Below, piece after piece: positions 1 to 20,684 of a stretch of DNA of 20,684 nt. Each line of letters starts with the position of its first letter. Position 1 is the stretch's first letter. The DNA lies in IMG/VR virus record IMGVR_UViG_3300007734_000445, positions 1 through 20,684 of that record, one strand, 5' to 3'. This DNA is from a virus. The position numbers and the translations under genes are program-made. The notes beneath the pieces are model-generated. The model was not told the origin of the DNA. It searched no databases and saw only the letters and a program-made list of their open reading frames with translations.

Positions 1-61
1 GCCGATTTGAGCCTATTTCGACCACGTTGCCACCAGTTGAGCCTTGTTCTGGCTTATTCAT
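1..61 (-). CDS. terL: Terminase large subunit of a third unit (Z), N-terminal fragment
   Basis: The first 20 codons of a TerL gene start at an ATG at 61 and run off the left edge. The peptide carries GGNVVEIGSNR, matching GGQVVEIGSKR at the same position of the complete TerL at 13068-14561; 12 of the first 20 residues agree. The start overlaps the stop of the HNH gene by 8 bases, exactly as in the other HNH-TerL pair. Because the sequence differs from the complete TerL, this fragment belongs to another phage genome, not to a repeat of the same one. TerL is the ATPase and nuclease that packages DNA into the prohead. Only the non-catalytic N-terminus is visible here, so the identity rests on context and similarity. 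Confidence 0.85.
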   Translation of the reverse strand, partial: MNKPEQGSTGGNVVEIGSNR

Positions 62-341
62 GGCTTTGGCTCACGTTTTGAGGTAAATAACGTCCATGGA
101 GAGTCGGGGGTGTGTGTGCCGTACCAGAAAATGACCCCCCCTTCGCTAAATTACACCTTCTGCAAGCGGTTATGAGATTATCCATGTCGTCTGACCCATT
201 CAGGCGCTTCGGGATTATATGGTCAATGTGTAAGTTCTCGTCACTGCCGCAGTACTGGCAGACCCCACCGTCTCTTTGGATAACCTGTTGCCTTAGTCGT
301 CGCCAACCCTTCGACGAACCCTTAGCCCACGATCGACTCAT
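54..341 (-). CDS. HNH endonuclease, end of unit Y
   Basis: A 95-residue HNH nuclease. Zinc ligands C28/C31 and C60/C63 flank the core, with D40-H41 as the catalytic HNH pair and N55 and N64 as the later Asn positions. Small HNH proteins beside TerL are typical of cos-type phages, where they assist terminase cleavage of concatemers; that role is inferred from family and position. The ATG overlaps the stop of the upstream hydrolase gene (TGATG), and the stop lies 8 bases inside the next terL. The protein is roughly half identical to the HNH at 14554-14844. Its codons for TPPTLH near the C-terminus are identical in both copies, unlike the flanking codons. Confidence 0.92.
   Translation of the reverse strand: MSRSWAKGSSKGWRRLRQQVIQRDGGVCQYCGSDENLHIDHIIPKRLNGSDDMDNLITACRRCNLAKGGSFSGTAHTPPTLHGRYLPQNVSQSHE
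95..113. other. Candidate cos or packaging element, left copy
   Basis: The 19 bases catggagagtcgggggtgt are identical to 14595-14613 and lie at the same distance (34 bases) from the downstream TerL start. All six codons (TPPTLH) match including wobble bases, while neighbouring codons differ. The position inside an HNH gene just before terL is where cos sites often lie in actinobacterial phages. This is inference, because other near-identical patches exist between the units, for example around the fibre start. Confidence 0.35.
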
Positions 342-829
342 CAGTGATACCCGTTAGCTTGGAAGAACGCCCAAGCCTTACACATCGAACCGTAACGCTC
401 TTTGATATAACGAATCGACCACTCAATCTGAGTAAAGCCATCGAGGTTCTTGTATTTCGTGTTACGCATCTGGCCAATACCCCAGTGCGACCCGTTGCGC
501 GCTGATGGATTCCAGTGCCTGTTCTCTTTGTCTATCAGTCTCACGAAGCAAGTATATTGCTCGAAGTTCACAATGCGAGAGTGAGCGAAGAGTTTATAGT
601 GATCTGTTGATGTTGTGTCTGTAGCTTGTACGGGTGTCATCTGTAGCATAAGCAAGCCTAACAGTAGGCAAAGCCCTCCCGTTCGCTGCGTTCGCCCCTG
701 CGAGCTACCACGCCCTGCGGCTCGCTGGGAGCGACGACAGCGTAGCCGACGAGTCAAGGATGTGGATAACTTAGACGAGGGCTTGGGCGTGTCTACAGGG
801 TTATCCACAGGCTGGGTATAACTATTCAT
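341..829 (-). CDS. Secreted SLT/lysozyme-like peptidoglycan hydrolase, unit Y
   Basis: A 162-residue protein. Residues 1-50 are polar and Arg-rich, about 52-66 form a hydrophobic signal segment, and a likely signal peptidase site follows VQA (69). The rest is a compact lysozyme-like domain: probable catalytic E102 in the segment DKENRHWNPSA, then GSHWGIGQMRN, and a pair of cysteines (C94, C150) that could form a disulfide. The family cuts glycan strands; a role in wall penetration or lysis is inferred. The start forms an ATGA overlap with the Dam-type gene. The N-terminal extension carries DnaA-box-like sequences and a stem-loop, so its protein sequence may be shaped by DNA function. Unit X has a homologue at 14844-15317. 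Confidence 0.82.
   Translation of the reverse strand: MNSYTQPVDNPVDTPKPSSKLSTSLTRRLRCRRSQRAAGRGSSQGRTQRTGGLCLLLGLLMLQMTPVQATDTTSTDHYKLFAHSRIVNFEQYTCFVRLIDKENRHWNPSARNGSHWGIGQMRNTKYKNLDGFTQIEWSIRYIKERYGSMCKAWAFFQANGYH
700..725. repeat. Inverted repeat GCGAGC(14)GCTCGC
   Basis: A 6-bp perfect stem, gcgagc at 700-705 and gctcgc at 720-725, sits in a GC-rich patch of short imperfect repeats in the N-terminal extension of the hydrolase gene, about 35 bases from the DnaA-box cluster. Unit X has a palindrome at the equivalent place (15212-15225). It may belong to an origin or regulatory element, or may be only a low-constraint coding spacer. Confidence 0.4.
761..809. other. DnaA-box cluster, candidate replication origin of unit Y
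   Basis: Two perfect DnaA boxes are visible: TGTGGATAA at 761-769 (reverse orientation) and TTATCCACA at 801-809. Between them GTGTCTACA at 789-797 matches the box TTGTCCACA at 7 of 9 bases. The order and orientation repeat in unit X (15263-15312), with total spans of 49 and 50 bases. The cluster lies inside the 5' end of the hydrolase gene. No phage replication genes are seen, so host DnaA recruitment here is a reasonable inference. It has not been shown that the site works as an origin. Confidence 0.6.
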
Positions 830-1308
830 CGAACCCTCGCAATACCTAGACGCTTTAATCCTTCAACGTTCTGCTCGCCAAAGGCGAAGAATACCGTGGG
901 CATGAAGATGCCTTTATAGTCACCGTTAGAAGTTACGAACTCCATCCGTGATGGTAACGGCATAATCGCGTCGGCTGCGTCCCACATCTCATCGAACCAT
1001 TTAGCCTTAGCTGTAGGCATTAGGCAGACGCCGTTATTGTGAGCTGCGAACTTACGCGCCCACGGTGTCGAGTTGCTAAACGGTGGATTCATCCAGACTC
1101 GACCTTCCCACGGTTGCGCCAAGCCGTCATCTAGGATCGTGTAATACTTGTCCACCGGTATCCACGAAATGCCGCCAATCGGCTGGGCTGGGTCGGTGTT
1201 GAAGTGCAGACCTAACCCTTCGAAGACCCACGGCGGCGTGTAATAATCGTCAGAGGTCTGCGGTACGTTCTCTGCCCCAATGTCGAGGTCTAGGCTGTAA
1301 TCAGTCAT
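826..1308 (-). CDS. dam: Phage DNA N6-adenine methyltransferase (Dam-type)
   Basis: A 160-residue protein matching the phage Dam family (PF05869 type) by eye. An N-terminal YTPPWVF segment (residues 23-29) precedes F-N-T-D-P-A, and the catalytic NPPF motif stands at 74-77 inside VWMNPPFSNSTPW. The family methylates adenine at N6, usually to protect phage DNA from host restriction. The ATG overlaps the stop of the upstream zinc ribbon gene, and its own stop forms ATGA with the hydrolase start. Unit X has no counterpart: the same slot holds an FmdB-like zinc ribbon gene. The recognition sequence cannot be read from the protein. Confidence 0.85.
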   Translation of the reverse strand: MTDYSLDLDIGAENVPQTSDDYYTPPWVFEGLGLHFNTDPAQPIGGISWIPVDKYYTILDDGLAQPWEGRVWMNPPFSNSTPWARKFAAHNNGVCLMPTAKAKWFDEMWDAADAIMPLPSRMEFVTSNGDYKGIFMPTVFFAFGEQNVEGLKRLGIARVR

Positions 1309-1456
1309 TGAACTGATCCATTAGACAGATACCGAGCTGGCCGCAGACCGTACATTCCAGCACTTTGACGTTAGGCGGTAGATTGTTAGTTACCACGCGC
1401 TCCCTTTGCTTGGTCAGGCGCTTACAAGTCCGGCAGTTATAGTCGAGCAGTTCCAT
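1301..1456 (-). CDS. Small zinc ribbon protein, unit Y
   Basis: A 51-residue protein starting at ATG 1456. It carries a CRTC pair near residue 8 and a CTVC pair near residue 36, the usual four-cysteine zinc ribbon, with NNLPPNVKVLEC between. Unit X has a homologue at 15474-15638 that keeps the NLPPNV segment and the C-terminal Cys pairs. The 5' end overlaps the nuclease-like gene by 20 bases, and the stop lies 8 bases inside the methylase gene. Such proteins often bind nucleic acid or a polymerase subunit, but nothing here shows which. Confidence 0.72.
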   Translation of the reverse strand: MELLDYNCRTCKRLTKQRERVVTNNLPPNVKVLECTVCGQLGICLMDQFND

Positions 1457-1952
1457 ATTTACTCCGTTCCAAGTTCTCCATAGGCTGCAAGTTAATCTGC
1501 GTTACCCAATAGTTACCTTGCTGATCGTGTAGGTACTTCGACTGCTTGGCCACAGCTACTGGCAGCCAGCCGACCAAGTAATAACACGGCGACTTTCCCA
1601 CCACGAGGATGGCCACGTCGTCGTCTCTGTCCCATGTCTGGATTATGAGCGGCGAGTTTTCGTACTTCGCCCACTTGACCTCGATGTCTCGGCCAACATC
1701 GGCCTTGATCTTGTAATTTCGATTGTTGTATTCCGGCAAGTTCTGCTTGAGATACGTGGCCACTGCGCACTCCGCTGCAAAGGCCTCGGTCTGTCGTAGC
1801 ACTAGCTCGGGAAAGGTTAGTTCACCGTACTGCTTCTTCTTTGGGAACGAGTGAGCCTGTTTAGTCCACTGTGGGATGTAATTCTCGGCTCGAAATAAAC
1901 CGCCTCGCGCAGCTAGTAGCTGATGCTCTAAAGGTAAGTTGATCCGTATCAT
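1437..1952 (-). CDS. Putative PD-(D/E)XK-fold nuclease, unit Y
   Basis: A 171-residue protein. The signature is E61 in a helix, D85, then E91-V-K93 (KADVGRDIEVKW), the E...D-x5-E-x-K pattern of PD-(D/E)XK nucleases. The unit X homologue at 15616-16107 keeps all four residues (E52, D77, E83, K85) although much of the rest differs. The downstream region DRDDDVAILVVGKSP...YYLVGWLP is also conserved. The start chosen is ATG 1952, which forms ATGA with the upstream zinc ribbon stop and aligns with the X start; an in-frame ATG at 1961 would add three residues. The role, perhaps recombination or concatemer processing, is inferred from the neighbours. Confidence 0.62.
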   Translation of the reverse strand: MIRINLPLEHQLLAARGGLFRAENYIPQWTKQAHSFPKKKQYGELTFPELVLRQTEAFAAECAVATYLKQNLPEYNNRNYKIKADVGRDIEVKWAKYENSPLIIQTWDRDDDVAILVVGKSPCYYLVGWLPVAVAKQSKYLHDQQGNYWVTQINLQPMENLERSKYGTARL

Positions 1953-2083
1953 TTGCCGCACTCCCTACAGAAGAAGAGAATTGCCAGTCCGTCTTTATAT
2001 TCAAAGACGCCTTCAGCGTTAGGCGTGGGCTTTTCGCACTTGTCGCAGTAATCCCACTTCTTGGTTGCCTCGACCCAGCCCAT
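1949..2083 (-). CDS. Tiny zinc ribbon protein, unit Y
   Basis: A 44-residue protein with CDKC at 13-16 and CREC at 39-42, a four-cysteine zinc ribbon. The ATG at 2083 overlaps the stop of the ssDNA-annealing-like gene (TAATG), and its stop overlaps the nuclease start (ATGA). Unit X carries a longer relative (16104-16298, 64 residues) at the same place, with W-x-x-C-D-K-C and C-R-E-C conserved. Function unknown. Position between the two DNA-metabolism genes suggests a partner protein. Confidence 0.7.
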   Translation of the reverse strand: MGWVEATKKWDYCDKCEKPTPNAEGVFEYKDGLAILFFCRECGK

Positions 2084-2733
2084 TATTTATGCCACGCTTT
2101 AGCTTCACGCTTGACCCACTTGCCAGCCGGATTCAAGTCGTACCAAATGGCCTCGCACTGGTTAGCCTTTAACCGTTCTGGGCAGGCGTAGCCGTGATAG
2201 GCTTTCCCGTTCTTCTGGCTCGTTCCCTCTTTTAGGATCATGTGGCCGTGTTTACACTGTTCCGCTTCTTCCACTAGCTCACCGCCAAGATTGCCGGCGA
2301 TGGCTTGGATTGAAGTTCCGAGTGTTGGCATTCCGGCTTGTTTGGATTGTGCCGTCGAATTCCACGCGTCGAGGTTCTCTCTTGCAGCTACATCTGCCGC
2401 TGATAGACGCTCGACCTTTTCCATGTCCTGACGAGTAGGCCTCGCCTCGCTAGGCGTTAGGGCGCTTATAACTCTTCCGTAAGCGGAAGTGACACAGTTC
2501 TCGACCCAGAAGTCACGATTGACTCCACGATCAGAACGCATTTCGAATGCGAAGTCCACGGCGCTGGGTACAGTGTCTTCGTACTCACGAAACACCATCG
2601 CTTTGACCAAGATGTAACCGCGCTGGACGTCGAAGTCCTCCACTGAGGCCTCAAGTCTGCCGGTTGGGAATTCTAGGCGGAAGCGCTTAATACGGGCGTT
2701 TACGTCCTCGTAGCCGTCCAAGAAGCCGCTCAC
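2083..2733 (-). CDS. Putative ssDNA-annealing or binding protein with C-terminal zinc finger, unit Y
   Basis: A 216-residue protein. Residues 1-95 (GFLDGYEDVNARI, FPTGRLEAS, GYILVKAMVFREYED, WVENCVTSAYGR) show the pattern of actinophage proteins related to single-strand annealing proteins; this is recognised by eye only. Residues about 158-200 form a zinc finger with C160, H162, C184 and C193. GTG 2733 is chosen because it overlaps the upstream stop (GTGA) and aligns with the ATG of the X homologue (16298-16915); a GTG at 2739 is the alternative. A role in recombination-driven replication or concatemer formation would fit a phage without its own polymerase, but is inferred. Confidence 0.6.
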   Translation of the reverse strand: MSGFLDGYEDVNARIKRFRLEFPTGRLEASVEDFDVQRGYILVKAMVFREYEDTVPSAVDFAFEMRSDRGVNRDFWVENCVTSAYGRVISALTPSEARPTRQDMEKVERLSAADVAARENLDAWNSTAQSKQAGMPTLGTSIQAIAGNLGGELVEEAEQCKHGHMILKEGTSQKNGKAYHGYACPERLKANQCEAIWYDLNPAGKWVKREAKAWHK

Positions 2734-2897
2734 TTCCACGCCGCCTCTGTTAATGCCTTAGCGATTGCTCGACCGCGTACGTAGCCCTCAGAGTGTCCGT
2801 CACGCCAGCCTTTGGAATATCCAATCATGGTAAATAAGAACGTGGAAAGACCCACGCTTACCACCATCAGAACGAAGTCTGCTGTTTCCTGTTTCAT
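2730..2897 (-). CDS. Small membrane protein with Gly/Tyr-rich tail, unit Y
   Basis: A 55-residue protein: a hydrophobic segment at about 8-27, then a soluble tail with spaced glycines (GYSKGWRDGHSEGYVRGRAI). The ATG at 2897 has a GGGAG ribosome site lying in a potential hairpin. The stop overlaps the next start (GTGA). The X homologue (16916-17059, 47 residues) keeps the layout of one membrane segment followed by GY..GR..GY..G..IGYRRG. Function unknown. It is the first gene after the only promoter-sized gap in the unit. Confidence 0.75.
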   Translation of the reverse strand: MKQETADFVLMVVSVGLSTFLFTMIGYSKGWRDGHSEGYVRGRAIAKALTEAAWK

Positions 2898-2904
2898 TGT
2901 GTAG

Positions 2905-2939
2905 CTCCCGATTCTGGGAGTCAGTCCGTCTGCTCCCAG
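2905..2939 (-). promoter_or_regulatory. Candidate Shine-Dalgarno switch: two competing hairpins, unit Y
   Basis: On the transcript, element a GGGAG (2933-2937), element b CUCCC (2916-2920) and element c GGGAG (2905-2909, the ribosome site of the next gene) occur in order. Pairing a with b gives a 7-bp stem (2914-2920 with 2933-2939, loop 12) that frees the ribosome site; pairing b with c (stem 5, loop 6) hides it. No T-run follows, so this is not an obvious terminator. The same three-element order is present in unit X. Confidence 0.4.
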
Positions 2940-2968
2940 TCTTAGGGTTCAGCAAGAACGGCACTCGG

Positions 2969-3440: not shown

Positions 3441-3628
3441 TTCCCCTTGATCCCGAATGCTTCGTCTTTAGGATTCAAGTATCGAAGAACGACTGGCAGA
3501 ACGGCTGCAAGTCCGGCGTAACCAATCTGCTTAATGTCGGGATTAGCTGTGTCTGTCATGTAGACCGCCAAAGCAGCAGCTAGAAAGCTGCGACCCCATG
3601 AGGCTAGAAGTGCTTTTATCTTGTTCAT
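3437..3628 (-). CDS. Holin, unit Y
   Basis: A 63-residue membrane protein with hydrophobic stretches at about 13-25 and 36-50, and the conserved blocks ASWGRSFLAAALAVY and AAVLPVVLRYLNPKDEAFG. It follows the M15 endolysin with an ATGA overlap. A very similar protein occupies the same place in unit X (17342-17527). Holins permeabilise the cytoplasmic membrane at the end of infection so that the endolysin reaches the wall. The call rests on size, topology and position next to the endolysin. Confidence 0.8.
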   Translation of the reverse strand: MNKIKALLASWGRSFLAAALAVYMTDTANPDIKQIGYAGLAAVLPVVLRYLNPKDEAFGIKGN

Positions 3629-4095
3629 TTTCTCTCCTTTAGCTTCAAGCTCCCGATGAGCGCAGCGGCTTTCGCCTCGCTCAAGTCGATTTCGAAGTGC
3701 ATCTCGTCGGCGCGAGACTTGTAATCCCCACCCCAGCGAAGGCCGTACTTCTTGGCGAGCGCTCGGATCATAGGTACTTTCTCATTTGGGAACGTTCCGA
3801 CCTTGCCAAGCTGATGGCTCGAGGCGTTAAGGTCGATGGCCGTCCCAGAGGAGTGATTGCTTAGCTTGTCTGATGATCCGCGCACGTTCCGAAAGCAATA
3901 ACCCCAGTCATCCAGTGAGCCTTCATCGATTGGCTCAATGAGTGCATGAAACTCTTCGGCAAATCCAACCAAGAGTGGAGCGCACTTCTCAGCGCATCGC
4001 AGCTTGATCTTCGTGCCTTTGACCGGATACGACTTCACGCCAATCTCATTCGGATCAGCGGAAGCCGTCCAGCCATTCAATGAAGTAAGAGTCAT
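3625..4095 (-). CDS. M15-family peptidase endolysin, unit Y
   Basis: A 156-residue zinc peptidase of the VanY / D-Ala-D-Ala carboxypeptidase type. Zinc ligands are H81 and D88 (SNHSSGTAIDLNA) and H133 (DEMHFEI, with E131 as likely base). The segment LGKVGTFPNEKVPMIRALAKKYGL...WGGDY is conserved with the X homologue. The whole protein is catalytic domain, with no evident wall-binding module. It cleaves peptide bonds in peptidoglycan and with the downstream holin forms the lysis pair. ATGA overlaps on both sides show tight translational coupling. Confidence 0.92.
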   Translation of the reverse strand: MTLTSLNGWTASADPNEIGVKSYPVKGTKIKLRCAEKCAPLLVGFAEEFHALIEPIDEGSLDDWGYCFRNVRGSSDKLSNHSSGTAIDLNASSHQLGKVGTFPNEKVPMIRALAKKYGLRWGGDYKSRADEMHFEIDLSEAKAAALIGSLKLKERK

Positions 4096-5222: not shown

Positions 5223-6470
5223 CTAACTTACAATCGTCGCCGAAGCCCAGTCGAGCGTCGGATTTACTGTGTTCCATAGTTCCGTGATTGGAACGCTCTG
5301 CCAGTTCATTGCCTGCAAAGAATACGCGATAGGCGACAAGTTCATTGTTAGGGACACTTCGTTATAGGCCGCTTGGAACGTCCAACCTTCTACGAAGCCG
5401 AGGAAGTTACCGCTGACCATATTAAGCGGAAGGTCGCTGAGAGAGACCGGCATTCCCATAAAGACATTAATAAGGTCGTCTCGGTCAGCGTTGTCTATTT
5501 CAGGATTTGTTAGCTGGTAAGTAATATTGTTAAAGTTAGCTTGCGGATAAGCTCGAAGGCTCAAGTAGAAATCGGCTTGCGTCTGCGCGTCAGCGGCATT
5601 GTGTAGGGTGGTCGTAATAATTTGGCCAAGTGAACCGTACAGCGAGATTGAGTCGTTATCGATTGCCGATTTCTCTGCCGATGATGTGGCGTTATATTTT
5701 AAGGTTATTGAGTTACGAACGTCGCCTGCTCTTGTCTGGATTGATAAGCCCGATCCTTGAGCGTTATTGGCAGAAAGTTCTATGTACCCATTAGCGGCCA
5801 AATACTGGCTTCGGTGAGTGCTATCGGCATAAGATATTTGGCCGGCCGCATTCTCATAAAGATACCCAAGTCCAGACGTTGCGATTGCCGAGACCAAAGA
5901 GTAAGAGTCTGTCCGACTAGAAGCGCGAGCTGCTATTTCATAATCTCCGGGTCTGTCTATTTCGCCAAGTCCCGTATTAAATGCTGTCGCCCAAGTAAGG
6001 GTCGGATCAGTCGTCTGCCATTGCAAGGTAGCTGGTACTTGATTCCACTGGTTAAACAAGATGGATTTAAGAACGTCATAGATTTGGTCACCATCGAATT
6101 CTTTAGGTAATACGCCATCTGTTAGGTACTTTGGAAGTCGTGAAAGTGCGCCAAGCGCAAGGATTGTAACTCGCTGCGTATACCCGACACCGCCGACATC
6201 CGAGACCTCAATAGTTAGATCTGTAACCGTTCCGCCAAAGATAGGTACAAGGGTAGCTGTTGAGTCCTGTAGCTCGACGGTGATGGAATCGTTAATCGTA
6301 ATCGGGATGGCCGTCTGGTTTAGGTTAATCAGGGTCAGATTGACGTAACCGGCCTGCGCTTGTTCGTATATGTTGGTACGTCCACTGGTCAGGCTTAGAT
6401 TGGCCAATACGCTGTCTGTAACGGGTACGCCGTTGATTTCGACGTTCCAGACGGGATTCCACAGGGTCAT
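5223..6470 (-). CDS. Minor tail protein (tail tip), unit Y
   Basis: A 415-residue protein directly after the tape measure (ATGA overlap). It begins MTLWNPVWNVEINGVPV and holds the block LANLSLTSGRTNIYEQAQAGY shared with the X homologue at 19246-20496; similarity continues to the C-terminal W..V...ELWNTVNPTLDWASA. In this gene order the protein is expected to be the baseplate or distal tail hub linking the tube to the fibre. No enzymatic motif is seen. Confidence 0.78.
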   Translation of the reverse strand: MTLWNPVWNVEINGVPVTDSVLANLSLTSGRTNIYEQAQAGYVNLTLINLNQTAIPITINDSITVELQDSTATLVPIFGGTVTDLTIEVSDVGGVGYTQRVTILALGALSRLPKYLTDGVLPKEFDGDQIYDVLKSILFNQWNQVPATLQWQTTDPTLTWATAFNTGLGEIDRPGDYEIAARASSRTDSYSLVSAIATSGLGYLYENAAGQISYADSTHRSQYLAANGYIELSANNAQGSGLSIQTRAGDVRNSITLKYNATSSAEKSAIDNDSISLYGSLGQIITTTLHNAADAQTQADFYLSLRAYPQANFNNITYQLTNPEIDNADRDDLINVFMGMPVSLSDLPLNMVSGNFLGFVEGWTFQAAYNEVSLTMNLSPIAYSLQAMNWQSVPITELWNTVNPTLDWASATIVS

Positions 6471-8131
6471 TTATCGAACGCCCCTACAAGCGCTCCAGCG
6501 CCCGATGTGCCACGGTAGAAGGAATCGTTGAGCGTGTTTACGATTGTCCGAGCTGTGCCTTCGGAGTCGATTGCGCCGTTCACGGTTAAATTAATCATCG
6601 TCGCAGCTTCTCCAGCGCGGAATCTTCCGGGATTGAAAGTACTTTCTGATTGAACGATATTTCCAGTAACAATATCGGCGCGCTTCTGTACGTCGTCGAA
6701 GGACTTAATAATTGCGTCCAGTCGCTTCTGTGCATCTGCCTTGTAAATCTTATTACCCTCCACGTCGCTGGTTAATTTACCAAGTGCGTCTGAGATGTCG
6801 GTCAGGTCTTTAATAACATCCATTGCATTAGCTCCGCCTTTGCTAACCGCAGCTAGTCCACCACCGCCTCCACCTCCACCAGCGCCTGTTCCGCCAAGTC
6901 CAAGACCGCTTAGATCGAGACCACCGGCACGAGAGACGCCTGAAGCGCCTCCGAGATACGTACCCTTCTGGATTGGGTTACTTCCGCCGCCGGCCACCGT
7001 GTTATCGAAGTCGAGAGACGCGTTCGAAGAGTTCGCTAAGGCGTTCGCACCAGCTAAGACACCGGCAGCAAGTGCCACAGCGCCGACGCCTAGCAGCGGA
7101 TTTAAAGCGAACGCAGTCGCGACGCCTGTAACAATAGCTGAAGCTTTGAGCGCGTTATAGGCAGCAATTAAAGTCTTGATAATCGCAATCGTGGCCGTAA
7201 CATAAGCCGCTACTTTAGAGACCACAAATACAGTTCCAATGACAATACCCAGCGCAATAATCTCATCTTTAAATGAGATGACAGTCTTGATGACGTCCTT
7301 GATTCGCTCGCCCCATTGATACGCGTTCTTTTCCGCGTCACTCAATCCTTCGCTAAGTCCACCCTTGCCGGTTAGCCCGTTTACGAAGGCTTGAAGTTGT
7401 GGGACGACGTTCTCTAAGATGTATTTTGTAAACTGCTGAACCAGTGGAAGCAGAGCCGTTCCGATTTGCTCGTTAAGTTCATCCGTGGCAATCTTGATAC
7501 GAGCTAAGCCCTTCTCGGTACTTTGCGCTTCGTTCTCTGCAAAGTTTCCAAAGGTCTGCGTTAAGGTATTCATAATCGCGTCGGTGTCTTTAGATTTAAG
7601 AAGGTTGGCATCGAGTCCAAGACCCAAGCGACCTAAAGCCTGAGAGTTCCCGTCGTAAGCCTTGCCTAACGCATTCGAGACGGCCTCCAGCGGTTTACCC
7701 GTCGCCGAGCTTATGTCTAGCGCCAGATTGAGTAGCTTCTGAGCTTCCTCGACATCGTTCGTACTTCTAACAAGTCGAGAGAACGCCGGACGAAGCTGGT
7801 CATCAGTGACGCCAATCGCCAGCGATGTCTGCGTAATATAATCTTCAACCCCTGCTATTTGAGCAGCCGTGGCGTTAGTCGTGTTCTGAATAGTCAGCGT
7901 AAGTTTACGTTGGGCAGCTTCGTCGGCTGCTGCGTTCTCAATAGCGGCTTTGGCATAAGCACCAATAGCAGCGCCGGCAGCGGCAAAGGCTAGGGCAGCC
8001 TTCTTTCCAAAGTTGCTAAATTGATCGCCTAAAGACTCCGCACTTGTGCCGGCCATCTTCATGTTCTTATTGAAGTCAGCGACCTCGGCTAAGATTGAAA
8101 GCTTTAACGTTCTCGAGCCAGTTGTAGCCAT
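6467..8131 (-). CDS. Tape measure protein, unit Y
   Basis: A 554-residue protein, short for the family, implying a tail of roughly 80 nm at about 0.15 nm per residue. ATG 8131 is chosen for its TAATG overlap with the preceding gene and GGAG site; GTG 8137 is the alternative. N-terminal half helical, a hydrophobic region at about 290-370, then a Gly-rich linker with a run of eight glycines, and a conserved C-terminus (ARTIVNTLNDSFYRGT) also present in the X fragment. The protein sets tail length and is ejected during infection. Confidence 0.88.
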   Translation of the reverse strand: MATTGSRTLKLSILAEVADFNKNMKMAGTSAESLGDQFSNFGKKAALAFAAAGAAIGAYAKAAIENAAADEAAQRKLTLTIQNTTNATAAQIAGVEDYITQTSLAIGVTDDQLRPAFSRLVRSTNDVEEAQKLLNLALDISSATGKPLEAVSNALGKAYDGNSQALGRLGLGLDANLLKSKDTDAIMNTLTQTFGNFAENEAQSTEKGLARIKIATDELNEQIGTALLPLVQQFTKYILENVVPQLQAFVNGLTGKGGLSEGLSDAEKNAYQWGERIKDVIKTVISFKDEIIALGIVIGTVFVVSKVAAYVTATIAIIKTLIAAYNALKASAIVTGVATAFALNPLLGVGAVALAAGVLAGANALANSSNASLDFDNTVAGGGSNPIQKGTYLGGASGVSRAGGLDLSGLGLGGTGAGGGGGGGGLAAVSKGGANAMDVIKDLTDISDALGKLTSDVEGNKIYKADAQKRLDAIIKSFDDVQKRADIVTGNIVQSESTFNPGRFRAGEAATMINLTVNGAIDSEGTARTIVNTLNDSFYRGTSGAGALVGAFDK

Positions 8132-8580
8132 TACCACTCCTTCAATATCTTAGTGAACGCCTTTTCCCACTTTTCAAGTATCTCCGGCTGCAAGCGTCGA
8201 AGCGTTGGGTAGATAAACCATCCACGTGATCCGCGCTTGTATCGGCCAGACCAAATAGGAAATTGCTTATATTTATTTGAGCCGAATTCCTCGCCGCCCC
8301 AGAGGTCGCGAGTTGTAGCTCCTCCGCTGAACTTTTGATTTGCAAACCCGTACGAAATCTCGCCGACTTTGGATGACTTGACGACCTTTGAACCCAGCGC
8401 AATTCTCGAAGCAACAGTTCCACGATCACCAGCGGCTTCAAAGATATTGCGTTGAACAAAGGAAGCAAGCGCTCCAGATTCTTCTTTGGCCGCATCTACA
8501 GCCGCCTCGTCCATCCCTTTGAAAGCAGTAATAACGGCGCGCAGTTCTTGCTTGTTATAAGCGACTGCCTCATCCGCCAT
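8131..8580 (-). CDS. HK97 gp10-like tail completion or minor tail protein
   Basis: A 149-residue basic protein with features of the HK97 gp10-like family: a central G-Y-F-A/SGG region and a C-terminus (WFIYPTLRRLQPEILEKWEKAF) ending in a helix. It starts at ATG 8580 with a GGAGAAG site, overlapping the frameshifted end of the tail chaperone by 11 bases. In most siphoviruses this family lies before the tail tube gene; here it lies between chaperone and tape measure. The family call is by pattern only, so a minor tail role is equally possible. Confidence 0.5.
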   Translation of the reverse strand: MADEAVAYNKQELRAVITAFKGMDEAAVDAAKEESGALASFVQRNIFEAAGDRGTVASRIALGSKVVKSSKVGEISYGFANQKFSGGATTRDLWGGEEFGSNKYKQFPIWSGRYKRGSRGWFIYPTLRRLQPEILEKWEKAFTKILKEW

Positions 8581-10396: not shown

Positions 10397-11935
10397 TTAG
10401 GTGAAGTTGAACGCATTCGCCGCAGCTGCAATCTTTGTAGCGCAAGCGCCATAAGAATTTAGCGAGATTTCAACAGTTCCATCTGATGGCTTATTAACAT
10501 CGAGGCGGAAGTTACCGCTTTCGTACCATGTATAACCGGATGGCTCGATGACCATCATTGAGTCATCGCCAGTGCCTGTGATTTCTCCTGAGTTATCTAC
10601 GAAGAAGTTCAACCCAAGAACGACACCGCGCTGGGATTGACCTGTCACAAGGCCTGCCTGATTTTGAGGCTGGTATGCGTTGAATAGCGGTGTGCCGTTG
10701 TCGTTGTAGCCCATGATGTTTGACCATTGCGCTGGTGACACCAAGATGTTCTGTGCGAAGCGTTGAGTTCCGGCGTATACGGCTGCGTTAGCGCGGCTTA
10801 CGTATGCGATGAGTCCGGCGGCTGTGTTAGCTGTTGGAGTTCCATCTGAAACTGAGTCTGTCTTGATTTGATTTGCCACGAACTTATTCTGGGCAAATGC
10901 CATTGATGCACCCATGATTCGAACAAGTTCATTGAAGAAGTCTGGCGAGCTGCGATCGATGATTTCTGTTGTGAGAATATTGCGTCCGGCAAAGCGGCTG
11001 ATTGGCACTGAGATGTACGCTGATTCAATTCCTGTATTTGAAACTGCGCCGCCCTCTGCCACTGCTTCAACGGTTGCGATTTGCGAAATCTTAGGAATCT
11101 CGAACTGTAATCCAGCGTCCGGAAGAGTGCCACGAGAAATCGCATCTATTGCGCCTCTAGTTCCGTTACTTAGCCCATTGATTACTTCATTGAGCTGGCG
11201 TGTTGGATTGAAGGCTGGGTTAGTTGTTCCAAGATCATCATTAGCTGCTGCAACGTAGATTGCAGAGTCTGACATTGGATTTAACTTTGCCTTGATTGAA
11301 TGCTCCATCCATGTGCCAAGATTTACGATTGGCGAACGTGGAGAAGTAAAGAAAGATGGTGCTGGTTTGTTAGCTTGTACGACGTGCTGTGAAGCCTCGA
11401 CCACCTCTGCGGCTGGTGCTTCTGTTTGTTCGGTAGTGGATTCCACTGCGTCTCCTTCGGTTGGTTGTGTGTCTGGTGTGATTTCCGTTGTAGCTGCGAC
11501 ATGACTGACGCGCGCTGCATCGAATGCTGGGTTATGGGTTAAGGCGACGCCTACGAGAGTCCCTGAATTTACGACCATCGTTCCGTCCTCGTTAAATCCA
11601 TGATCTGAAACACTGGCCTCGACGGAGAACCCGTCACGCAGTCCATCCATAGCTTCTTGGATGGCGTCTGTGCCGGCTGTGGTCTTTGAAATCTTAAATG
11701 TGGCATCGATAGACTTTCCATCTGGTGAAAGTTCCATCTTTAAAGTTTTCCCGATTGGACGGGCAGAATCATGCTCAAGGTTTAGTTTTACTGAAGCCGG
11801 AGTAAGTGATCCAGACTTAAATAAGACTTTACCTGTCGAAGCGTTGGCCGGAGTATCGAACTCGACGATTCTTCCTGTGATGGTGCGAGCCTCTGAATCG
11901 GCTGCCGTAATTGTGAACGGTGTAAGTATCTTCAT
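10397..11935 (-). CDS. Prohead protease-major capsid protein fusion
   Basis: A 512-residue protein. Residues 1-150 are an HK97-type prohead protease with probable catalytic H55 (NLEHDSARPIGK) and S104 (RDGFSVEAS). Residues about 150-200 are a Pro/Glu/Thr-rich linker. Residues about 200-512 are an HK97-fold major capsid protein (EIPKISQIATVEAVAEGGAV, FAGRNILTTEIIDRSSPDFF, a late SYGACATKIAAAANAF). Protease and capsid are usually separate genes; the fused form occurs in some very small actinobacterial siphoviruses as I recall. Cleavage in the linker during maturation is expected. The ATG overlaps the portal stop (ATGA). Confidence 0.9.
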   Translation of the reverse strand: MKILTPFTITAADSEARTITGRIVEFDTPANASTGKVLFKSGSLTPASVKLNLEHDSARPIGKTLKMELSPDGKSIDATFKISKTTAGTDAIQEAMDGLRDGFSVEASVSDHGFNEDGTMVVNSGTLVGVALTHNPAFDAARVSHVAATTEITPDTQPTEGDAVESTTEQTEAPAAEVVEASQHVVQANKPAPSFFTSPRSPIVNLGTWMEHSIKAKLNPMSDSAIYVAAANDDLGTTNPAFNPTRQLNEVINGLSNGTRGAIDAISRGTLPDAGLQFEIPKISQIATVEAVAEGGAVSNTGIESAYISVPISRFAGRNILTTEIIDRSSPDFFNELVRIMGASMAFAQNKFVANQIKTDSVSDGTPTANTAAGLIAYVSRANAAVYAGTQRFAQNILVSPAQWSNIMGYNDNGTPLFNAYQPQNQAGLVTGQSQRGVVLGLNFFVDNSGEITGTGDDSMMVIEPSGYTWYESGNFRLDVNKPSDGTVEISLNSYGACATKIAAAANAFNFT

Positions 11936-13041
11936 CTGATCATTTCCTCTGCTACTCGTATTTCCTCTGCACTTAACGCGCCGACGCGGTTAAGAATTTC
12001 GTAAATTTGCGCACGTTCTAACGCTGAGCCGCGCAAGTAATCATCGAGTGCGTATTCGACGCGCTGCGTTGATGGTACAAAGTCCGGCATTGATAATCTT
12101 TCAGTTACGGAGTTCATAAGTGGAATTAAGGAGAAGTCGAGCAAAGTCTGACGAGTCGTGCTGGCGTTGGAGTACGTCATCGACGAACCAGTCTCCGCAT
12201 CTACAAAGTAAGCCGGAATTCCAAGCGCTCGCGCTAGTTCTGTCGCGATGTAGCTTCTCGCACTTGCCAGCTGTAACTTCTCAGGGTCAAAGCCTAAAGT
12301 TTCAAGTGAGATGTCTGCGTTAAGAAAAGCAGTCGTGCGATTGCGCCTGCTTGCGCCCCAAGACTCAAGTAACTTGGCAATGCGATCTGCTGGCAATGCT
12401 GAACCGTTAGATTTGAGAACCATCTGCGGCACAGGTTCGCGCGCGTACAAAGCGGCAGCTCGTTCTAGTTCCGCGCCGGTGCGAATTGTCATTCCAGCGC
12501 GATTTAGTAATCCTTCGTCGTTACCGTAGAAGACAACGAGCGAACCAACACCTGAAAGTGGAAGTGGCGTATGTCCGTCGATTGAGTACGATTCAATCTC
12601 GGTCGAATCGCTGTTCGTGTTAATTGTGATGCGCTCTGGTGAAATTCTCTGAACACTGCGAACGCGCTGCGTATCTGCAAAGAGTTCTGTAATCTGCCAA
12701 TAGGCGTAACCGTGAAAGAGCAAATCTTCAAGCGTCCAGACGTACGTAGCGACTCCTGGAATTCGTGGGTCTGGTGTACGAATGACGCGTGGAATATCTA
12801 CATTCATCCCAGTATCGCGATCGCGAACGTCAAGACCAATCGAAGCAATCGAAGAACAAATAATATTGCGACCGCGCGCGATGGCTGGAACGCTCATCGC
12901 TTCTTGTCTTGTAGCTGTGCGATTGCCGCGAAAGAAAGGCGAAAGTGAGTCCAGTGTCGTTACTGGCGCAAGAGAAGCAGAGACGTCGTAGGTCAATGAT
13001 TCCACTTTTGAAGTTCGAACGAAGATGTCTCTAAATCCCAT
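11932..13041 (-). CDS. Portal protein
   Basis: A 369-residue HK97-type portal, at the short end of the family. Recognisable blocks are VPAIARGRNIICSSIASIGLDV, LLFHGYAYWQITE, ISPERI, and a C-terminal region with S-S-M-T-Y-S-N...TRQTLLDFSLIPLMNSVTERLSMPDFVP. It forms the dodecameric ring at the capsid vertex through which TerL pumps DNA. It follows TerL by 26 bases with a weak ribosome site and overlaps the capsid gene start. Confidence 0.9.
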   Translation of the reverse strand: MGFRDIFVRTSKVESLTYDVSASLAPVTTLDSLSPFFRGNRTATRQEAMSVPAIARGRNIICSSIASIGLDVRDRDTGMNVDIPRVIRTPDPRIPGVATYVWTLEDLLFHGYAYWQITELFADTQRVRSVQRISPERITINTNSDSTEIESYSIDGHTPLPLSGVGSLVVFYGNDEGLLNRAGMTIRTGAELERAAALYAREPVPQMVLKSNGSALPADRIAKLLESWGASRRNRTTAFLNADISLETLGFDPEKLQLASARSYIATELARALGIPAYFVDAETGSSMTYSNASTTRQTLLDFSLIPLMNSVTERLSMPDFVPSTQRVEYALDDYLRGSALERAQIYEILNRVGALSAEEIRVAEEMIR

Positions 13042-13067: not shown

Positions 13068-14561
13068 TCACCCTACAAGAATATCTATTTCCGTCTCTGG
13101 GCGTGTCGCAAAGTGCGTAACGAGTGCAGCGGCCACAGCAGCGCAGACCGCAGCTTGCGATGCGCGCCTTCCTATGACCCAGCCGCCATCGCCACGACGT
13201 AGCTGCACAGCCGAGAGTATTTGCGTCGTTAAATCGGTCTGACCCTTATGACGAAGCCGTCCCGAGTTAATCGCACCCAGTAGCTCGTCACAAGCCTGCG
13301 GATAGGCCGCGTCCATATCGAAAGTCGGGATTCCGGCCGGTTGGAGTCTTGCAGCTACAGCGCCACTTGTTCGCCGGCTATAAAGCAACCACTCCAAAGG
13401 GTACTTGCGCAAATAGGGAGCGGCTTCGTTAGCAATAGCACGATCATCTAGCTGGATGGCGTTCTCCCAAGTGTGAAGCAACTTTACGATGAACTTCTCT
13501 TCTCCGAGTTTCTGGGCTGCAACAAGCGCGGCAAATCTACGATCCGGCGAGCAATCGATTGCCATCCACGTTAGCTTCTCAGGATCGAGTTCGGCTTCTT
13601 CGTCTTGGCAGTTCTGCCACTCGGCCGCCCCAATGACGCTGGAGATGGTCTGAACCCACCGGCACAATACTTCGGTCATCACGACGTCGGCAGGGTCGTT
13701 GAAGACGGCTTTTATATTGTCAGGGTGAATCGTATGGCCGAGCGCCGGATTCGCAAAGGCTGCGTTTTCTAGACTTACCTCATCCGTCGGAGCGCTCCAT
13801 TCGAAATACCCGATGTCGTCCTCTGCGCCACTAGCTGCGGCCAGACCACGTTCCCTGAGCATATTCAAGACGATGCTGTGGGAATCGCCGGCGTTCGTGT
13901 AAGCCATGACCATTGGATTCTTAGCTGCGAGAAGGGTGTAGCGAAGTGAGGCGAAGGATTCCATATCGTGCATCTCTCGTAGCTCGTCGAGATGGATTGT
14001 CTCTGGCCTTGATACACCGCGAGCCGCTGAACCGCCGGCTTTGACGATGAACCTCGTACCCTTCAAAGTCTCGATTTCCTCCGAGCCGTGACTCCAACGA
14101 ATACGCTTAATCTGCTTGGCCAAGTAATCGCTTGTCTCAATCAGGCTGACCAACTGGCGAAATTGCTCAAGCGAGGTCGCAAGTCTATGAGCCGACCCGA
14201 TTTGCAGAGGTTCGTCCCAGAGAAAGAGACCGCCGAGAATTCTGACTTGCATCAGAAATGACTTTCCAGATTGTCGAGCTACGACGACCGTATTAATCGG
14301 CGATGCCCAGCGACCGTCCGGCTTGACCTTGTGCGTGTGTTCAAGAACGAACTTCTGCCACGGCATCAGTTCCACGCCGACTTCTTTTGCCAAATCTATG
14401 AGTTCGAAGCCCTTTGACGGCAGATCATTGAGCGGAGTATGAATTCTTGGCGTCGGATGGCCAAATAGCGGAGCTGATGTCGGCGCAATTCCCGACTGTA
14501 GCCGTTTAGAGCCTATTTCAACCACCTGCCCACCAAGTACGACTTGATCATCACTATTCAT
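13068..14561 (-). CDS. terL: Terminase large subunit, unit Y
   Basis: A 497-residue packaging motor. Walker A ARQSGKS at 95-101, Walker B TIHLDE at 188-193, coupling motif AYTNAGD at 220-226, and the C-terminal RNase H-like nuclease starting at IDCSPD with D336. The ATG lies 8 bases inside the HNH gene. No small terminase subunit is seen between HNH and terL; either HNH takes part of its role or terS is unrecognised. The sequence clearly differs from the TerL start at 1-61. The gene marks the left end (in transcription order) of unit Y. Confidence 0.95.
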   Translation of the reverse strand: MNSDDQVVLGGQVVEIGSKRLQSGIAPTSAPLFGHPTPRIHTPLNDLPSKGFELIDLAKEVGVELMPWQKFVLEHTHKVKPDGRWASPINTVVVARQSGKSFLMQVRILGGLFLWDEPLQIGSAHRLATSLEQFRQLVSLIETSDYLAKQIKRIRWSHGSEEIETLKGTRFIVKAGGSAARGVSRPETIHLDELREMHDMESFASLRYTLLAAKNPMVMAYTNAGDSHSIVLNMLRERGLAAASGAEDDIGYFEWSAPTDEVSLENAAFANPALGHTIHPDNIKAVFNDPADVVMTEVLCRWVQTISSVIGAAEWQNCQDEEAELDPEKLTWMAIDCSPDRRFAALVAAQKLGEEKFIVKLLHTWENAIQLDDRAIANEAAPYLRKYPLEWLLYSRRTSGAVAARLQPAGIPTFDMDAAYPQACDELLGAINSGRLRHKGQTDLTTQILSAVQLRRGDGGWVIGRRASQAAVCAAVAAALVTHFATRPETEIDILVG

Positions 14562-14844
14562 GGCTTAGGCTAACCGTTTCGGGGAGATTGTTTACATGGA
14601 GAGTCGGGGGTGTCAAAGGCTGTTCAAAAAAACGGCCACCTTTCGATAAATTGCACTTTTGGCAAAGAGTCTGCAAATTCTCATCTAGGTCACTGCCGTT
14701 TAAGCGTCTCGGCACGATGTGATCGATGTGCAACTTACCTTCAGTCTCTCCACACCTTTGGCAGCAATAGCCATCACGCATCAAGATTCGTTTGCGGATT
14801 GCAGCACGCTTTGCGCTGCTTCCACCACTCCAAACGCTTGCCAT
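14554..14844 (-). CDS. HNH endonuclease at the X-Y junction
   Basis: A 96-residue HNH nuclease with C28/C31, D41-H42, N56, C61/C64 and N65 in the expected order. It starts by TGATG overlap with the X hydrolase stop and ends 8 bases inside the Y TerL gene. Because upstream genes belong to unit X and downstream genes to unit Y, the genome junction must lie in or beside this gene; no scar, direct repeat or att-like sequence is evident. The codons for TPPTLH are identical to the left HNH copy. Confidence 0.92.
   Translation of the reverse strand: MASVWSGGSSAKRAAIRKRILMRDGYCCQRCGETEGKLHIDHIVPRRLNGSDLDENLQTLCQKCNLSKGGRFFEQPLTPPTLHVNNLPETVSLSHE
14595..14613. other. Candidate cos or packaging element, right copy
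   Basis: Identical 19 bases to 95-113, again 34 bases before the TerL start. If this is the terminase cutting site it defines a unit of exactly 14,500 bp and gives unlike genomes compatible ends. It is a candidate only: no overhang or nick position can be read from sequence. Confidence 0.35.
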
Positions 14845-17122: not shown

Positions 17123-17153
17123 TTGCAAGAATCCCGCCTAAATATCGGCGTGT

Positions 17154-17345
17154 CTAATGCCTGCCATGATCGTTTAGGTGCTGAATGAGCAAAGCCCTGA
17201 TTTCCCTGACGTCATGGCGTAGGCCATCGGCAAAGCCGTTTGAGACTGGCCGGGAATTGCGTTCGGACTTAGCTGCAAAGATTGCTGCAATGGCAGAGAT
17301 AGTTGCCGCCGCTATTACGCCGACGGCCTGGATAGTCTCGGTCAT
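17154..17345 (-). CDS. Single-span membrane protein, unit X
   Basis: A 63-residue protein with an N-terminal membrane helix (about 5-24) and a soluble tail ending LRHDVREIRALLIQHLNDHGRH, a pattern common in small actinophage proteins downstream of holins. It forms ATGA overlap with the holin stop. It replaces the lipoprotein and two-span protein found after the holin in unit Y. A lysis-related role is possible from position. Confidence 0.68.
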   Translation of the reverse strand: MTETIQAVGVIAAATISAIAAIFAAKSERNSRPVSNGFADGLRHDVREIRALLIQHLNDHGRH

Positions 17346-17527
17346 TTGTCATTGACGCCAAACTGCTTATCGTTGGGATTGAGCCAACGGATGATGACTG
17401 GCAATACGGCAGCTGCGCCAGCGGCGATGATTGCCTTTGGATCAGTTACTCCGGCAAGATAGACGGCCAAAGAAGCTGCCAAGAAGGATCGTGCCCAACT
17501 AGCCGCCATCGCCTTAAATTCAGTCAT
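17342..17527 (-). CDS. Holin, unit X
   Basis: A 61-residue membrane protein with ASWARSFLAASLAVYLAG and AAAVLPVIIRWLNPNDKQFGV, closely matching the Y holin. Two hydrophobic stretches at about 13-25 and 34-48. The ATG lies 8 bases inside the M15 gene end. It should form the membrane lesion that lets the M15 endolysin out. Confidence 0.8.
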   Translation of the reverse strand: MTEFKAMAASWARSFLAASLAVYLAGVTDPKAIIAAGAAAVLPVIIRWLNPNDKQFGVNDK

Positions 17528-17981
17528 TTTCTTTCTCCAATTTTGCTATCAACGCAGCGACCTTCGCCGGTGGCAAAGCAATTTCAAAGTGCATTTCGTC
17601 TTTGCGATTGCGGTAATCGCCACCCCAAATTAAGCCATATTTTTTGGCCAAAGCTCGGATCATCGGCACTTTCTCGTTTGGGAATGTTCCGACCTTGCCT
17701 AATGGATGGCGTGTGGCATTTAGATCGATGGCCGTACCGGATGAATGGTTGGAAAGCTTCCCCACATTTCCGCGAATATCCCTAAAGGCGTATCCCCAAT
17801 CATCCGGTGTGCCCCCATCGATTTGCTCGATAAGTTTGTCGAATTCGCAGGCGAACCCAATGAGCAATGGTGCAACGGCTTCGGCGCATTGAAGCTTCAA
17901 TGACGTACCAGGTACGGCAAATGACTTCACTCCGATTGAGGCCTTGTCCTTAGACGCAGGCCAGCCGTTTGCAGAAATCAT
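17520..17981 (-). CDS. M15-family peptidase endolysin, unit X
   Basis: A 153-residue zinc peptidase with H79 and D86 (SNHSSGTAIDLNA) and H131 with E129 (DEMHFEI). The LGKVGTFPNEKVPMIRALAKKYGL block is identical to unit Y, one of the best conserved proteins between the units. The ATG overlaps the upstream stop (ATGA). Endolysin role from family and holin neighbour. Confidence 0.92.
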   Translation of the reverse strand: MISANGWPASKDKASIGVKSFAVPGTSLKLQCAEAVAPLLIGFACEFDKLIEQIDGGTPDDWGYAFRDIRGNVGKLSNHSSGTAIDLNATRHPLGKVGTFPNEKVPMIRALAKKYGLIWGGDYRNRKDEMHFEIALPPAKVAALIAKLEKEND

Positions 17982-18241
17982 TTGAGCAATAATGCCGCTT
18001 CTTCAGCTGTAAGGCCTAGACGATCCAAAATTGACTGTTTTTGGGCATTTATTTCTTTTTGCAATTTGATTTCAGTGGCTTCAATTTTTGCAATTTCAGC
18101 ATCAATTTCAGATTGTGTTGGTGCATCTCCTTCAAGCACATCCCATTGAATGGATGAAATGTCACCGCCAACGATTGAAAATTCTGCCGTTGGTCGGAGT
18201 GATTTAATTGCTAGGATTAACTTTTCAGCGGTAGTTTGCAT
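17978..18241 (-). CDS. Small fibre-associated protein, unit X
   Basis: An 87-residue protein: a beta-like N-terminus (ATG 18241, TAATG overlap with the fibre stop) with FSIVGGDISSIQWDVLEGDAPTQSEIDA, which resembles XkdW-like proteins found after phage fibre genes, then a helix and the C-terminal LGLTAEEAALLLK shared with unit Y. Likely a fibre accessory or chaperone. Confidence 0.66.
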   Translation of the reverse strand: MQTTAEKLILAIKSLRPTAEFSIVGGDISSIQWDVLEGDAPTQSEIDAEIAKIEATEIKLQKEINAQKQSILDRLGLTAEEAALLLK

Positions 18242-19236
18242 TATGCACCAATTTCCATGAGAATGATCACTGAAGTGTTGTTGTCACTTTGTGCTGTGAT
18301 TGATCCAGAATTTGATGTGGAAAAAATCGCAGCCTGTGTTTTGTAGGTTGTTGCGGAAGTTGTAGCTGGTGAATCTAAATATGAAACACTGACAATTTGA
18401 CGAAATGCGTTGTTTCCATCACCAGGCGCACCTGTTCTAAATCCGACGGCTAAATTTCCGTTACCACCGCCGTTCCATACTGTGGTGGAATCTCTCACAA
18501 TGTTGTACCCAAATGCACTGAAAGTATCAACTCGTGCTTGATAAATTTGTTGGCTAACAATGACCATGATTTTACTTGTCGCGGAAGTTGGCGTGATTGA
18601 GCATGATAAACCTGTGTTTGTCATTGAAGTTGAAGCGATTGCCACGTCTGTGGTTGTAGTGGCTTGAACGACTTGCAGCACTTTACCGCCGCCGCCAGCT
18701 GTGCCCCATTTGAGGCCAGTTGCAGTCGTTGAATCGGCCATAAGTACCTGACCGTTTGTGCCAACGGCTAGACGTGAAACTGTGTCTGCCGCTGTTGCAG
18801 CTATTAAATCTCCTTTTGCATCCACAATTGATTTCGCAACTGCGCCGTTTGCAAGATCATACGCAGATTTGACTGCATTTGGCGTTGCCGCCGTGGTGGT
18901 CGATGTGCTTGACGTTGAATCGGTGAGCTGAACCGCACCCGCCTGTGTTGTCGATGCTGACTGAATTCCCACTGTAATTGCGCCGGATGTGCCACCGCCT
19001 GTAAGTGGTGAAGTGGCTGTGATTCCCGTGATGTCACCTTGATCGTTGGCGATCCACACGAAATCCATATCGGTATTTGAATTCTTTGCCAGGATTTGAC
19101 CAGTAGTGCCGCCAAGTAGGTCGGCCATCGATGTCGCAACGGCTTGCCCAAATACTTCAAAATCGGCAGGCAGGTCTGTGACCAGGTCTGTGTTTGTTGG
19201 CATCTGCCAGCCAAACGGCGTTGTTGGATTGCTCAT
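18241..19236 (-). CDS. Tail fibre / receptor-binding protein, unit X
   Basis: A 331-residue protein starting MSNPTTPFGWQMPTNTDLV, with about 60 residues nearly identical to the Y fibre (VTDLPADFEVFGQAVATSMA, DLLGGTTGQ), then repeat-like shaft sequence (SGAITVGIQSASTTQAGAVQL, AKSIVDAKGDLIAATAADTV) seen in many aquatic phage fibres. The distal part (KVLQVVQATTTTDVAIAST to LMEIGA) is unrelated to Y, pointing to a different receptor. Confidence 0.82.
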   Translation of the reverse strand: MSNPTTPFGWQMPTNTDLVTDLPADFEVFGQAVATSMADLLGGTTGQILAKNSNTDMDFVWIANDQGDITGITATSPLTGGGTSGAITVGIQSASTTQAGAVQLTDSTSSTSTTTAATPNAVKSAYDLANGAVAKSIVDAKGDLIAATAADTVSRLAVGTNGQVLMADSTTATGLKWGTAGGGGKVLQVVQATTTTDVAIASTSMTNTGLSCSITPTSATSKIMVIVSQQIYQARVDTFSAFGYNIVRDSTTVWNGGGNGNLAVGFRTGAPGDGNNAFRQIVSVSYLDSPATTSATTYKTQAAIFSTSNSGSITAQSDNNTSVIILMEIGA

Positions 19237-19245
19237 ATTTTCTCC

Positions 19246-20496
19246 TTATGCGACCACTAGGGCATTTTCCCATGTGAGAGTGTTTGAAATCGTGTTCCAC
19301 TGTTCCGACACGCTGACATCTTCCCACTTCATTGCTTGCAATGAGTAGGCCAATGGCGAAAGCAAAGCCGTGACAGAAATGGTGTTATATCCGGCTGACC
19401 ATTGCCAACCCTCGACGAATCCGGCGTATTGACCCGATGACATATTGGCCGGCAAATCAGAAATACGCAGCGGCAGACCCATGAAAATATTGATTAAGGA
19501 ATCACGATCAGCATCGTCAATTTCCGGGTTTGTTAGCTCAAATCGAATCGACTGCATCATATATTGCGGGTAGGCACGCAGTTTGAGATAGAAAGCCGCT
19601 TGATCTTCGGCATCTACTTGATCGTGCAAAGTAGTGTTGATGATTTGTGCTAAACGGCCAAAAATAGCCACTGAAGTCAAATCTTGATCCGTTACCTGGC
19701 TCGATGAATTGTGGCCATATTTGATGGTCAAGTCATTTCGCACATCGCCTGCCCTAGTCTGAATCTTGATTCCAGGGGCAATGGCTTGAGCTGCCGAAAC
19801 GTCGGTGTATCCGTTGGCTGCTAAATAAATAGATCGATGAGTCGAGTCGGCGTAGGAAATCTGACCTTGAGCATTTTCGTAAATGTAGCCAAGCCCTGAC
19901 GTGGCCAGCGATGCGACCAATGAATAAACGTCGGTGACATCGGCTGACCTAGCTGCGAGATCATAATTGCCAGGTGTGTCAATTTCTCCCAAACCTGTAT
20001 TTTCGGCATTTGCCCATATAGTGGTTGCCGGTGTGTAAGTAGCCCAAGTGAGAGCTCCGGGAACTTCTGACCAGTTGTTGAGAAGCAAATCCGTGAGAAC
20101 TGTATCGATTTGCGTGCCGTCAAATGCTCGATTAAGTGATGCGCTGTATAAGGCCTTTTGGAGCCTAGATAATGCACCCAAAGCCACGATTGTGATTGAT
20201 TGCGTGATTCCAATGCTTCCCGCATTTGCCACTTCGATGCTTAGATCAACGATGGAACCGCCAAAGATAGGCACGAAAACGTCATTTGAATCCTTTAAGC
20301 CTATTCCCACGGAATCGTTGATATTAAATTCCACTTGAGACTGCATGACGTTATACAAGGTCAAGCTGCAATATCCGGCCTGTGCCTGTTCATAAATGTT
20401 TGTGCGGCCACTTGTAATGCTTAGATTTGCCAGCACGAATTCGGTGTAATCCACGCCATTAATAGTGACCTGCCAAACGGGATTGAATACTGTCAT
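19246..20496 (-). CDS. Minor tail protein (tail tip), unit X
   Basis: A 416-residue homologue of 5223-6470, beginning MTVFNPVWQVTINGVDYTEF with the block LANLSITSGRTNIYEQAQAGY, and matching along its whole length (GLGEIDTPGNYDLAARSADVTDVYSLV, YADSTHRSIYLAANGY, AGFVEGWQWSAGYN). The ATG overlaps the tape measure stop (ATGA). Nearly the same length as in Y, as expected for a structural hub. Confidence 0.8.
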   Translation of the reverse strand: MTVFNPVWQVTINGVDYTEFVLANLSITSGRTNIYEQAQAGYCSLTLYNVMQSQVEFNINDSVGIGLKDSNDVFVPIFGGSIVDLSIEVANAGSIGITQSITIVALGALSRLQKALYSASLNRAFDGTQIDTVLTDLLLNNWSEVPGALTWATYTPATTIWANAENTGLGEIDTPGNYDLAARSADVTDVYSLVASLATSGLGYIYENAQGQISYADSTHRSIYLAANGYTDVSAAQAIAPGIKIQTRAGDVRNDLTIKYGHNSSSQVTDQDLTSVAIFGRLAQIINTTLHDQVDAEDQAAFYLKLRAYPQYMMQSIRFELTNPEIDDADRDSLINIFMGLPLRISDLPANMSSGQYAGFVEGWQWSAGYNTISVTALLSPLAYSLQAMKWEDVSVSEQWNTISNTLTWENALVVA

Positions 20497-20684
20497 CGTT
20501 CAACCCTGAAAGCCGTTGCCCCACCTGTGCCGCGATAAAATGCATCATTGACTGTATTGACGATAGTTCGTGCAGCTGCTTCCGGATCACCAACGATGCC
20601 CATATTGACTGTGACTTGTGGTGCCACGGCATTGCTTTGGTATCCGGCAGGTGCCCCACCGATTGTCACTGTTGGTTTGAATAG
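20493..20684 (-). CDS. Tape measure protein, C-terminal fragment, unit X
   Basis: The last 63 codons of a gene entering from the right edge. ARTIVNTVNDAFYRGTGG matches ARTIVNTLNDSFYRGTSG at the end of the Y tape measure, and the ATGA junction with the minor tail gene is the same. The fragment shows that unit X continues upstream with a tail module like that of Y. Confidence 0.85.
   Translation of the reverse strand, partial: LFKPTVTIGGAPAGYQSNAVAPQVTVNMGIVGDPEAAARTIVNTVNDAFYRGTGGATAFRVER

Follow-up and report, generated by a model that had tools for sequence, protein, structure and literature searches.

A viral contig of three unlike small phages, most likely formed by joining at shared cohesive ends

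Different phages can become joined through their ends when these are single-stranded and identical, as is known from classical studies of lambdoid phages; P2/P4-like phages have 19-nt ends in common. Among the small actinobacterial siphophages, Arthrobacter phage Adaia (15,840 bp) and cluster AN, Rhodococcus phage RRH1 (14,270 bp) and Curtobacterium phage Penoan (15,303 bp) have their genes in the order terminase-portal-capsid/protease-tail-lysis, with the capsid protein fused to a protease, and in Adaia and RRH1 the gene order closes on the right with an HNH endonuclease, adjacent to the terminase end. An Adaiavirus phage of 16,449 bp, the same length as Pseudomonas phage Hadban (OR067381), has cohesive 3' termini (PMC10458142). 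Here we describe a stretch of viral DNA, referred to as the window, in which unlike phages appear to be joined through identical ends as in the lambda-type case; the difference is that these phages form a large uncultured group with predicted 12-nt 3' ends and are known from metagenome contigs.

The window is an entire IMG/VR record of 20,684 bases without any N. It holds three different small phages head to tail on the minus strand, on which all features named below are located: the late part of phage X (14610..20684), one complete genome of phage Y (110..14597) and the first 97 nt of phage Z (1..97), comprising the end of an HNH frame and the start of a large terminase gene (TerL). At the X|Y join the exact 12-mer CCCCGACTCTCC stands between ACAC and ATG (14598..14609), and the same 12-mer with the same flanks is found at the Y|Z join (98..109), so that both junctions read exactly ACAC-CCCCGACTCTCC-ATG. 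These identical sites bound Y on both sides and are 14,500 nt apart, which is the length of Y with one overhang counted. The original prediction had described Y as a complete unit running from a TerL start at 14561 to an HNH stop at 54, with X before it and a differing TerL start after it, and had noted that HNH stop and TerL start overlap by 8 bases at both junctions (14554-14561 and 54-61); both observations were reproduced. Its description of the array as one of unlike genomes also stands, as X and Y, although homologous, are diverged and align only in scattered pieces that are 70-78% identical and offset by about 13.9-14.5 kb, and the TerL start following Y is a different one. The absence of an integrase was borne out for the scanned genes of the window, as was that of host DNA within it. 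What had been overlooked is the 12-mer with its ACAC and ATG flanks at both junctions, the very point where the contigs of related phages end.

Phage Y encodes a large terminase (13068..14561; PHROG 9, 1.2e-56), a portal protein (11932..13041; PHROG 12, 1.9e-34), a major capsid protein fused to a protease domain (10397..11935; PHROG 2263, 8e-50, and the head maturation protease PHROG 80, 9e-9) that matches the capsid-protease fusions of Arthrobacter phages, a tape measure protein (6467..8137; PHROG 8462, 1e-4) and an endolysin (3625..4095; PHROG 1512, 4e-22), together with tail proteins, a Dam-like methyltransferase, a transglycosylase-like protein and an HNH endonuclease. The part of X that is present contains the end of the tape measure gene, a minor tail protein, a tail fibre-like protein, the counterpart of the Y endolysin (17520..17981; PHROG 1512, 3e-23), small genes, a transglycosylase-like protein and most of an HNH gene.

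A search for near DNA matches among cultured phages returned none. At the protein level, TerL shows 29% identity to actinobacterial phages, and the capsid protein, across about a third of its length, is 30-41% identical in amino acids to the capsid-protease fusions of Arthrobacter, Rhodococcus, Curtobacterium and other small phages; the capsid of Hadban likewise matches the window group. Features that characterize the RRH1/Adaia type were found, namely a genome of about 14-16 kb, the order TerL-portal-capsid-tail-lysis, an HNH gene at the right end and the capsid-protease fusion. Genome size is shared with Adaia and cluster AN, RRH1 and Penoan, and gene order and capsid-protease fusion are those of the same siphophages. 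Judged by protein similarity and gene order, the window phages are new and distantly related to RRH1 and Adaia, siphophages of 14-16 kb, and their host is probably actinobacterial, since most relatives of TerL and capsid are phages of actinobacteria. Cultured Nanopelagicales phages were considered as kin and rejected, as at 39 kb they are not close in size.

The position of the genome ends was derived from relatives gathered with the TerL of Y, which gave 288 related places in viral contigs, many of them on contigs of 14-15 kb. The left ends of these relatives pile up at a single base, the contig beginning with ATG 36 nt ahead of TerL, and in one case (L039) an Illumina adapter immediately precedes this ATG. 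At the right end, 15 of the 28 contigs that end past the HNH motif terminate exactly at ACAC, and in L116 the adapter AGATCGGAA follows immediately after it. The 12-mer is missing from the trimmed right and left ends alike and is found exactly once in joins, whether a unit is joined to itself or to an unlike one. Library end repair strips 3' overhangs (PMC5557969), and this would explain why the 12-mer is missing from both types of end. As contig ends recur at ACAC on the right and at ATG on the left, twice with an adapter attached, the junction is identified, on sequence grounds, as a cos site with a 12-nt 3' overhang CCCCGACTCTCC. Both hallmarks of a cos phage with 3' cohesive ends are thus combined in the group: its genome ends are fixed, as seen in the contigs, and a short 3' overhang can be deduced from the sequence. 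Note that the conservation of the 12-mer is partly built in, most of the contigs compared having been fetched by that very pattern; contigs fetched through TerL alone carry the same 12-mer. Circles with direct terminal repeats only were considered in place of cos. They were rejected on two grounds: the repeats are as long as assembler k-mers, and the linear contigs have fixed terminal bases.

Two side observations concern the same position. A sister group (L007, L013, L015, L045 and L293) differs in its overhangs, having CCCTGACCCTTC and CCCTGACCCTTT at this point. Five further contigs (L050, L069, L011, L295 and L296) have a few extra bases at their cos ends that resemble part of the overhang in reverse complement and may be artefacts of fold-back or amplification.

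The cos site lies within a gene. An HNH endonuclease frame crosses the X|Y join (14554..14844; Pfam PF01844, 8e-14) and another the Y|Z join (54..341; Pfam PF01844, 5e-16), the last 14 codons being supplied by Y in the first case and by Z in the second. In every join that was translated, unlike or self, the frame stays open over cos and its last 14 codons come from the left end of the next genome. In the linear genome these codons are at the other end from the rest of the gene, so the HNH gene would be cut in two in virion DNA and whole only after circularisation or joining. Outside the window the gene was seen to straddle the cos cut in L002, L203 and L086. In Adaia and RRH1, the HNH gene also lies at the right end beside the terminase end but is annotated to end before the end of the genome, whereas in the window group its frame crosses the cut. 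The placement of the HNH gene directly beside TerL at cos may also be compared to the HNH partners of HK97-type cos-cleaving terminases, a likeness of arrangement. Within 13068-14844, TerL has no recognisable small terminase alongside, and the HNH gene takes that position.

Each of the three units was traced separately. Over its full 6075 nt, X matches at 98.7% identity the right-hand part of L082, a linear contig of 13,966 bp from Lake Soyang (3300007735) that begins with ATG and ends with ACAC at the same base as X. The left end of this contig is not that of Y (65% identity where alignable), and X thus exists alone as a linear genome. The closest relatives of Y on both halves, L002 and L286, join to themselves. 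The left end of Z is 99% identical to L203 and to L288 (the same contig as L245), 98% to L283 and 78% to relatives of Y. L203 joins it to the right end of the same phage (99% overlap); its left partner is a strain-level relative in L288 and an unrelated unit in L283, so that it has at least four different left neighbours when Y in the window is included. X, Y and Z are each an ordinary small tailed phage, separate from and independent of the others.

These observations bear on the notion of a stable element, either a heterodimer replicon or a tandem phage array in a chromosome, both of which had been listed as options in the original prediction. The contig itself and the genes that run in frame over its junctions would be consistent with such an element. 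Neighbours that stay constant across independent samples were not found, however: X occurs alone, the left end of Z is self-joined in one contig and has other left partners elsewhere, and another pair of units occurs in reversed order. Nor does the window contain host DNA, or an integration gene among those scanned, and a scan of 84,980 species genomes of bacteria and archaea detected, within its sensitivity, no TerL relative; other contigs, moreover, pair other phages. We therefore regard a stable element as hardly credible, and neither the heterodimer replicon nor the tandem chromosomal elements are retained. Of the listed options, it is joining at compatible ends that is upheld, as each junction falls precisely at cos and the 12-nt overhang is identical in the two; an error of assembly alone is unlikely for the reasons given below.

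Unlike joins at cos were found in 13 contigs (the window, G001, G002, L281, L282, L283, L284, L288, L289, L290, L209, L177 and L272), all with the same ACAC-12-mer-ATG. Self joins were found in about 24 contigs, with repeats that are 94-100% identical, against 67-90% identity between the units paired in unlike joins; the cut-off between the two classes, at about 90% identity, was set after the values had been seen. Contigs with an internal cos and no measurable overlap (e.g. L142, L139, L255 and L162) were left unclassified. The contig G001, of 25.5 kb, contains three units with two consecutive unlike joins, and L290 carries a unit U followed by V, the opposite order of L177, where a relative of V is followed by a relative of U. 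The counts of self and unlike joins cover contigs long enough to be tested and are not molecule frequencies, and long contigs are biased towards unlike joins because homogeneous concatemers collapse to circles in assembly. Among the relatives, L110 and L111 (3300008450) have an equal length of 7205, the same sample and the same match coordinates, and are probably a duplicate record.

Chimeras readily arise when metagenomes are assembled from short reads, and relatives with the 12-mer in common do occur in one sample, so that X, Y and Z might have been linked by the assembler without any joining molecule. The exact sequence common to the X|Y junction and to self junctions, however, amounts to 4+12+3 = 19 nt, and the same is true of Y|Z. 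The k-mers on record for the Lake Soyang assemblies, 27-127 (PMC7553992), are all longer than this, from which it follows that real joined molecules must have been present in the libraries. A chimera of this kind is also at odds with the 12-mer, which trimmed linear ends lack and joins nevertheless contain exactly once. An origin in assembly alone is accordingly quite improbable, and we consider it highly likely that the joins in the window arose by cohesive-end joining, whatever the setting.

In the mechanism that we propose, each phage would be packaged as one linear genome, cut at cos and ending in a 3' overhang, CCCCGACTCTCC. This overhang is common to the whole group, so a phage's right end would anneal as readily to the left end of a different phage as to its own left end. 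Ends would anneal in mixed DNA and be sealed by ligase during library preparation, and reads over the sealed joins would then be assembled into a single contig. In dilute DNA self joins are favoured, and a chain of three unlike units therefore needs concentrated DNA or an assembler that chooses among several partners.

The setting of the joining is addressed by four of the unlike joins (L209, L282, L289 and L272), which come from the samples 3300007735, 3300007734, 3300011115 and 3300011114, all of them Lake Soyang viromes. These were prepared by 0.2 um filtration, DNase treatment and CsCl purification of virions, sequenced from TruSeq libraries without amplification and assembled with SPAdes at k 27-127 (PMC7553992). 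Unlike joins are thus present in purified-virion DNA, as would be seen if cohesive ends join in vitro. A cos phage packages its DNA from cos to cos, and no internal cos is expected in its virion; as each virion should carry one such genome, the Soyang joins were most likely formed by annealing after extraction. Of the contigs tested, those from these viromes have 4 unlike joins and no self join, and those from elsewhere 8 unlike and 24 self joins (Fisher p 0.008), a result that is suggestive only, since library type, assembler and DNA concentration also differ, the cut-off is post hoc and most of the other samples are without identification. In the main test, the documented virion samples did not include 3300011335 and 3300011339.

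The same joins might instead have formed in co-infected cells, as mixed concatemers whose identical ends were sealed by host ligase or recombined at cos and which were caught before packaging. The shared overhang would permit this, the HNH frame is intact at every join examined, and six unlike joins (G002, L177, L283, L284, L288 and L290) come from samples without an identified preparation. Against it stand the four unlike joins in DNase-treated, CsCl-purified virion DNA, where an internal cos is not expected, and the fact that all joins encountered, short of a systematic search for others, lie exactly at cos, whereas homologous recombination would also join genomes elsewhere. Mixed concatemers are on balance a rather unlikely source, and for this contig joining in the tube is favoured over them. 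For the joins in the window we put the probability of formation after DNA extraction at roughly 0.7; note that this is inferred for this contig, not shown. The array is a real sequence feature with an ordinary cause, the cohesive-end joining of unlike phages, most likely after extraction.

Phage contigs that are longer than one genome are easily mistaken for new replicons or satellites. The artefact recurs in about a dozen public contigs, such records can be identified by one 12-mer, and records of this sort in virus databases should be split at cos. For an abundant uncultured group of phages of roughly 14 kb, the exact genome ends and the packaging type are now given. Slightly less likely again than mixed concatemers as such is the broader idea that co-infecting freshwater phages join in the cell and that a large guild keeps the common overhang; if true, joining in the cell would create hybrid packaging substrates and in-frame hybrid HNH proteins, and would help the exchange of whole genomes or arms. 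The finding raises a testable question, namely why one overhang persists across genomes that are as little as two-thirds alike.
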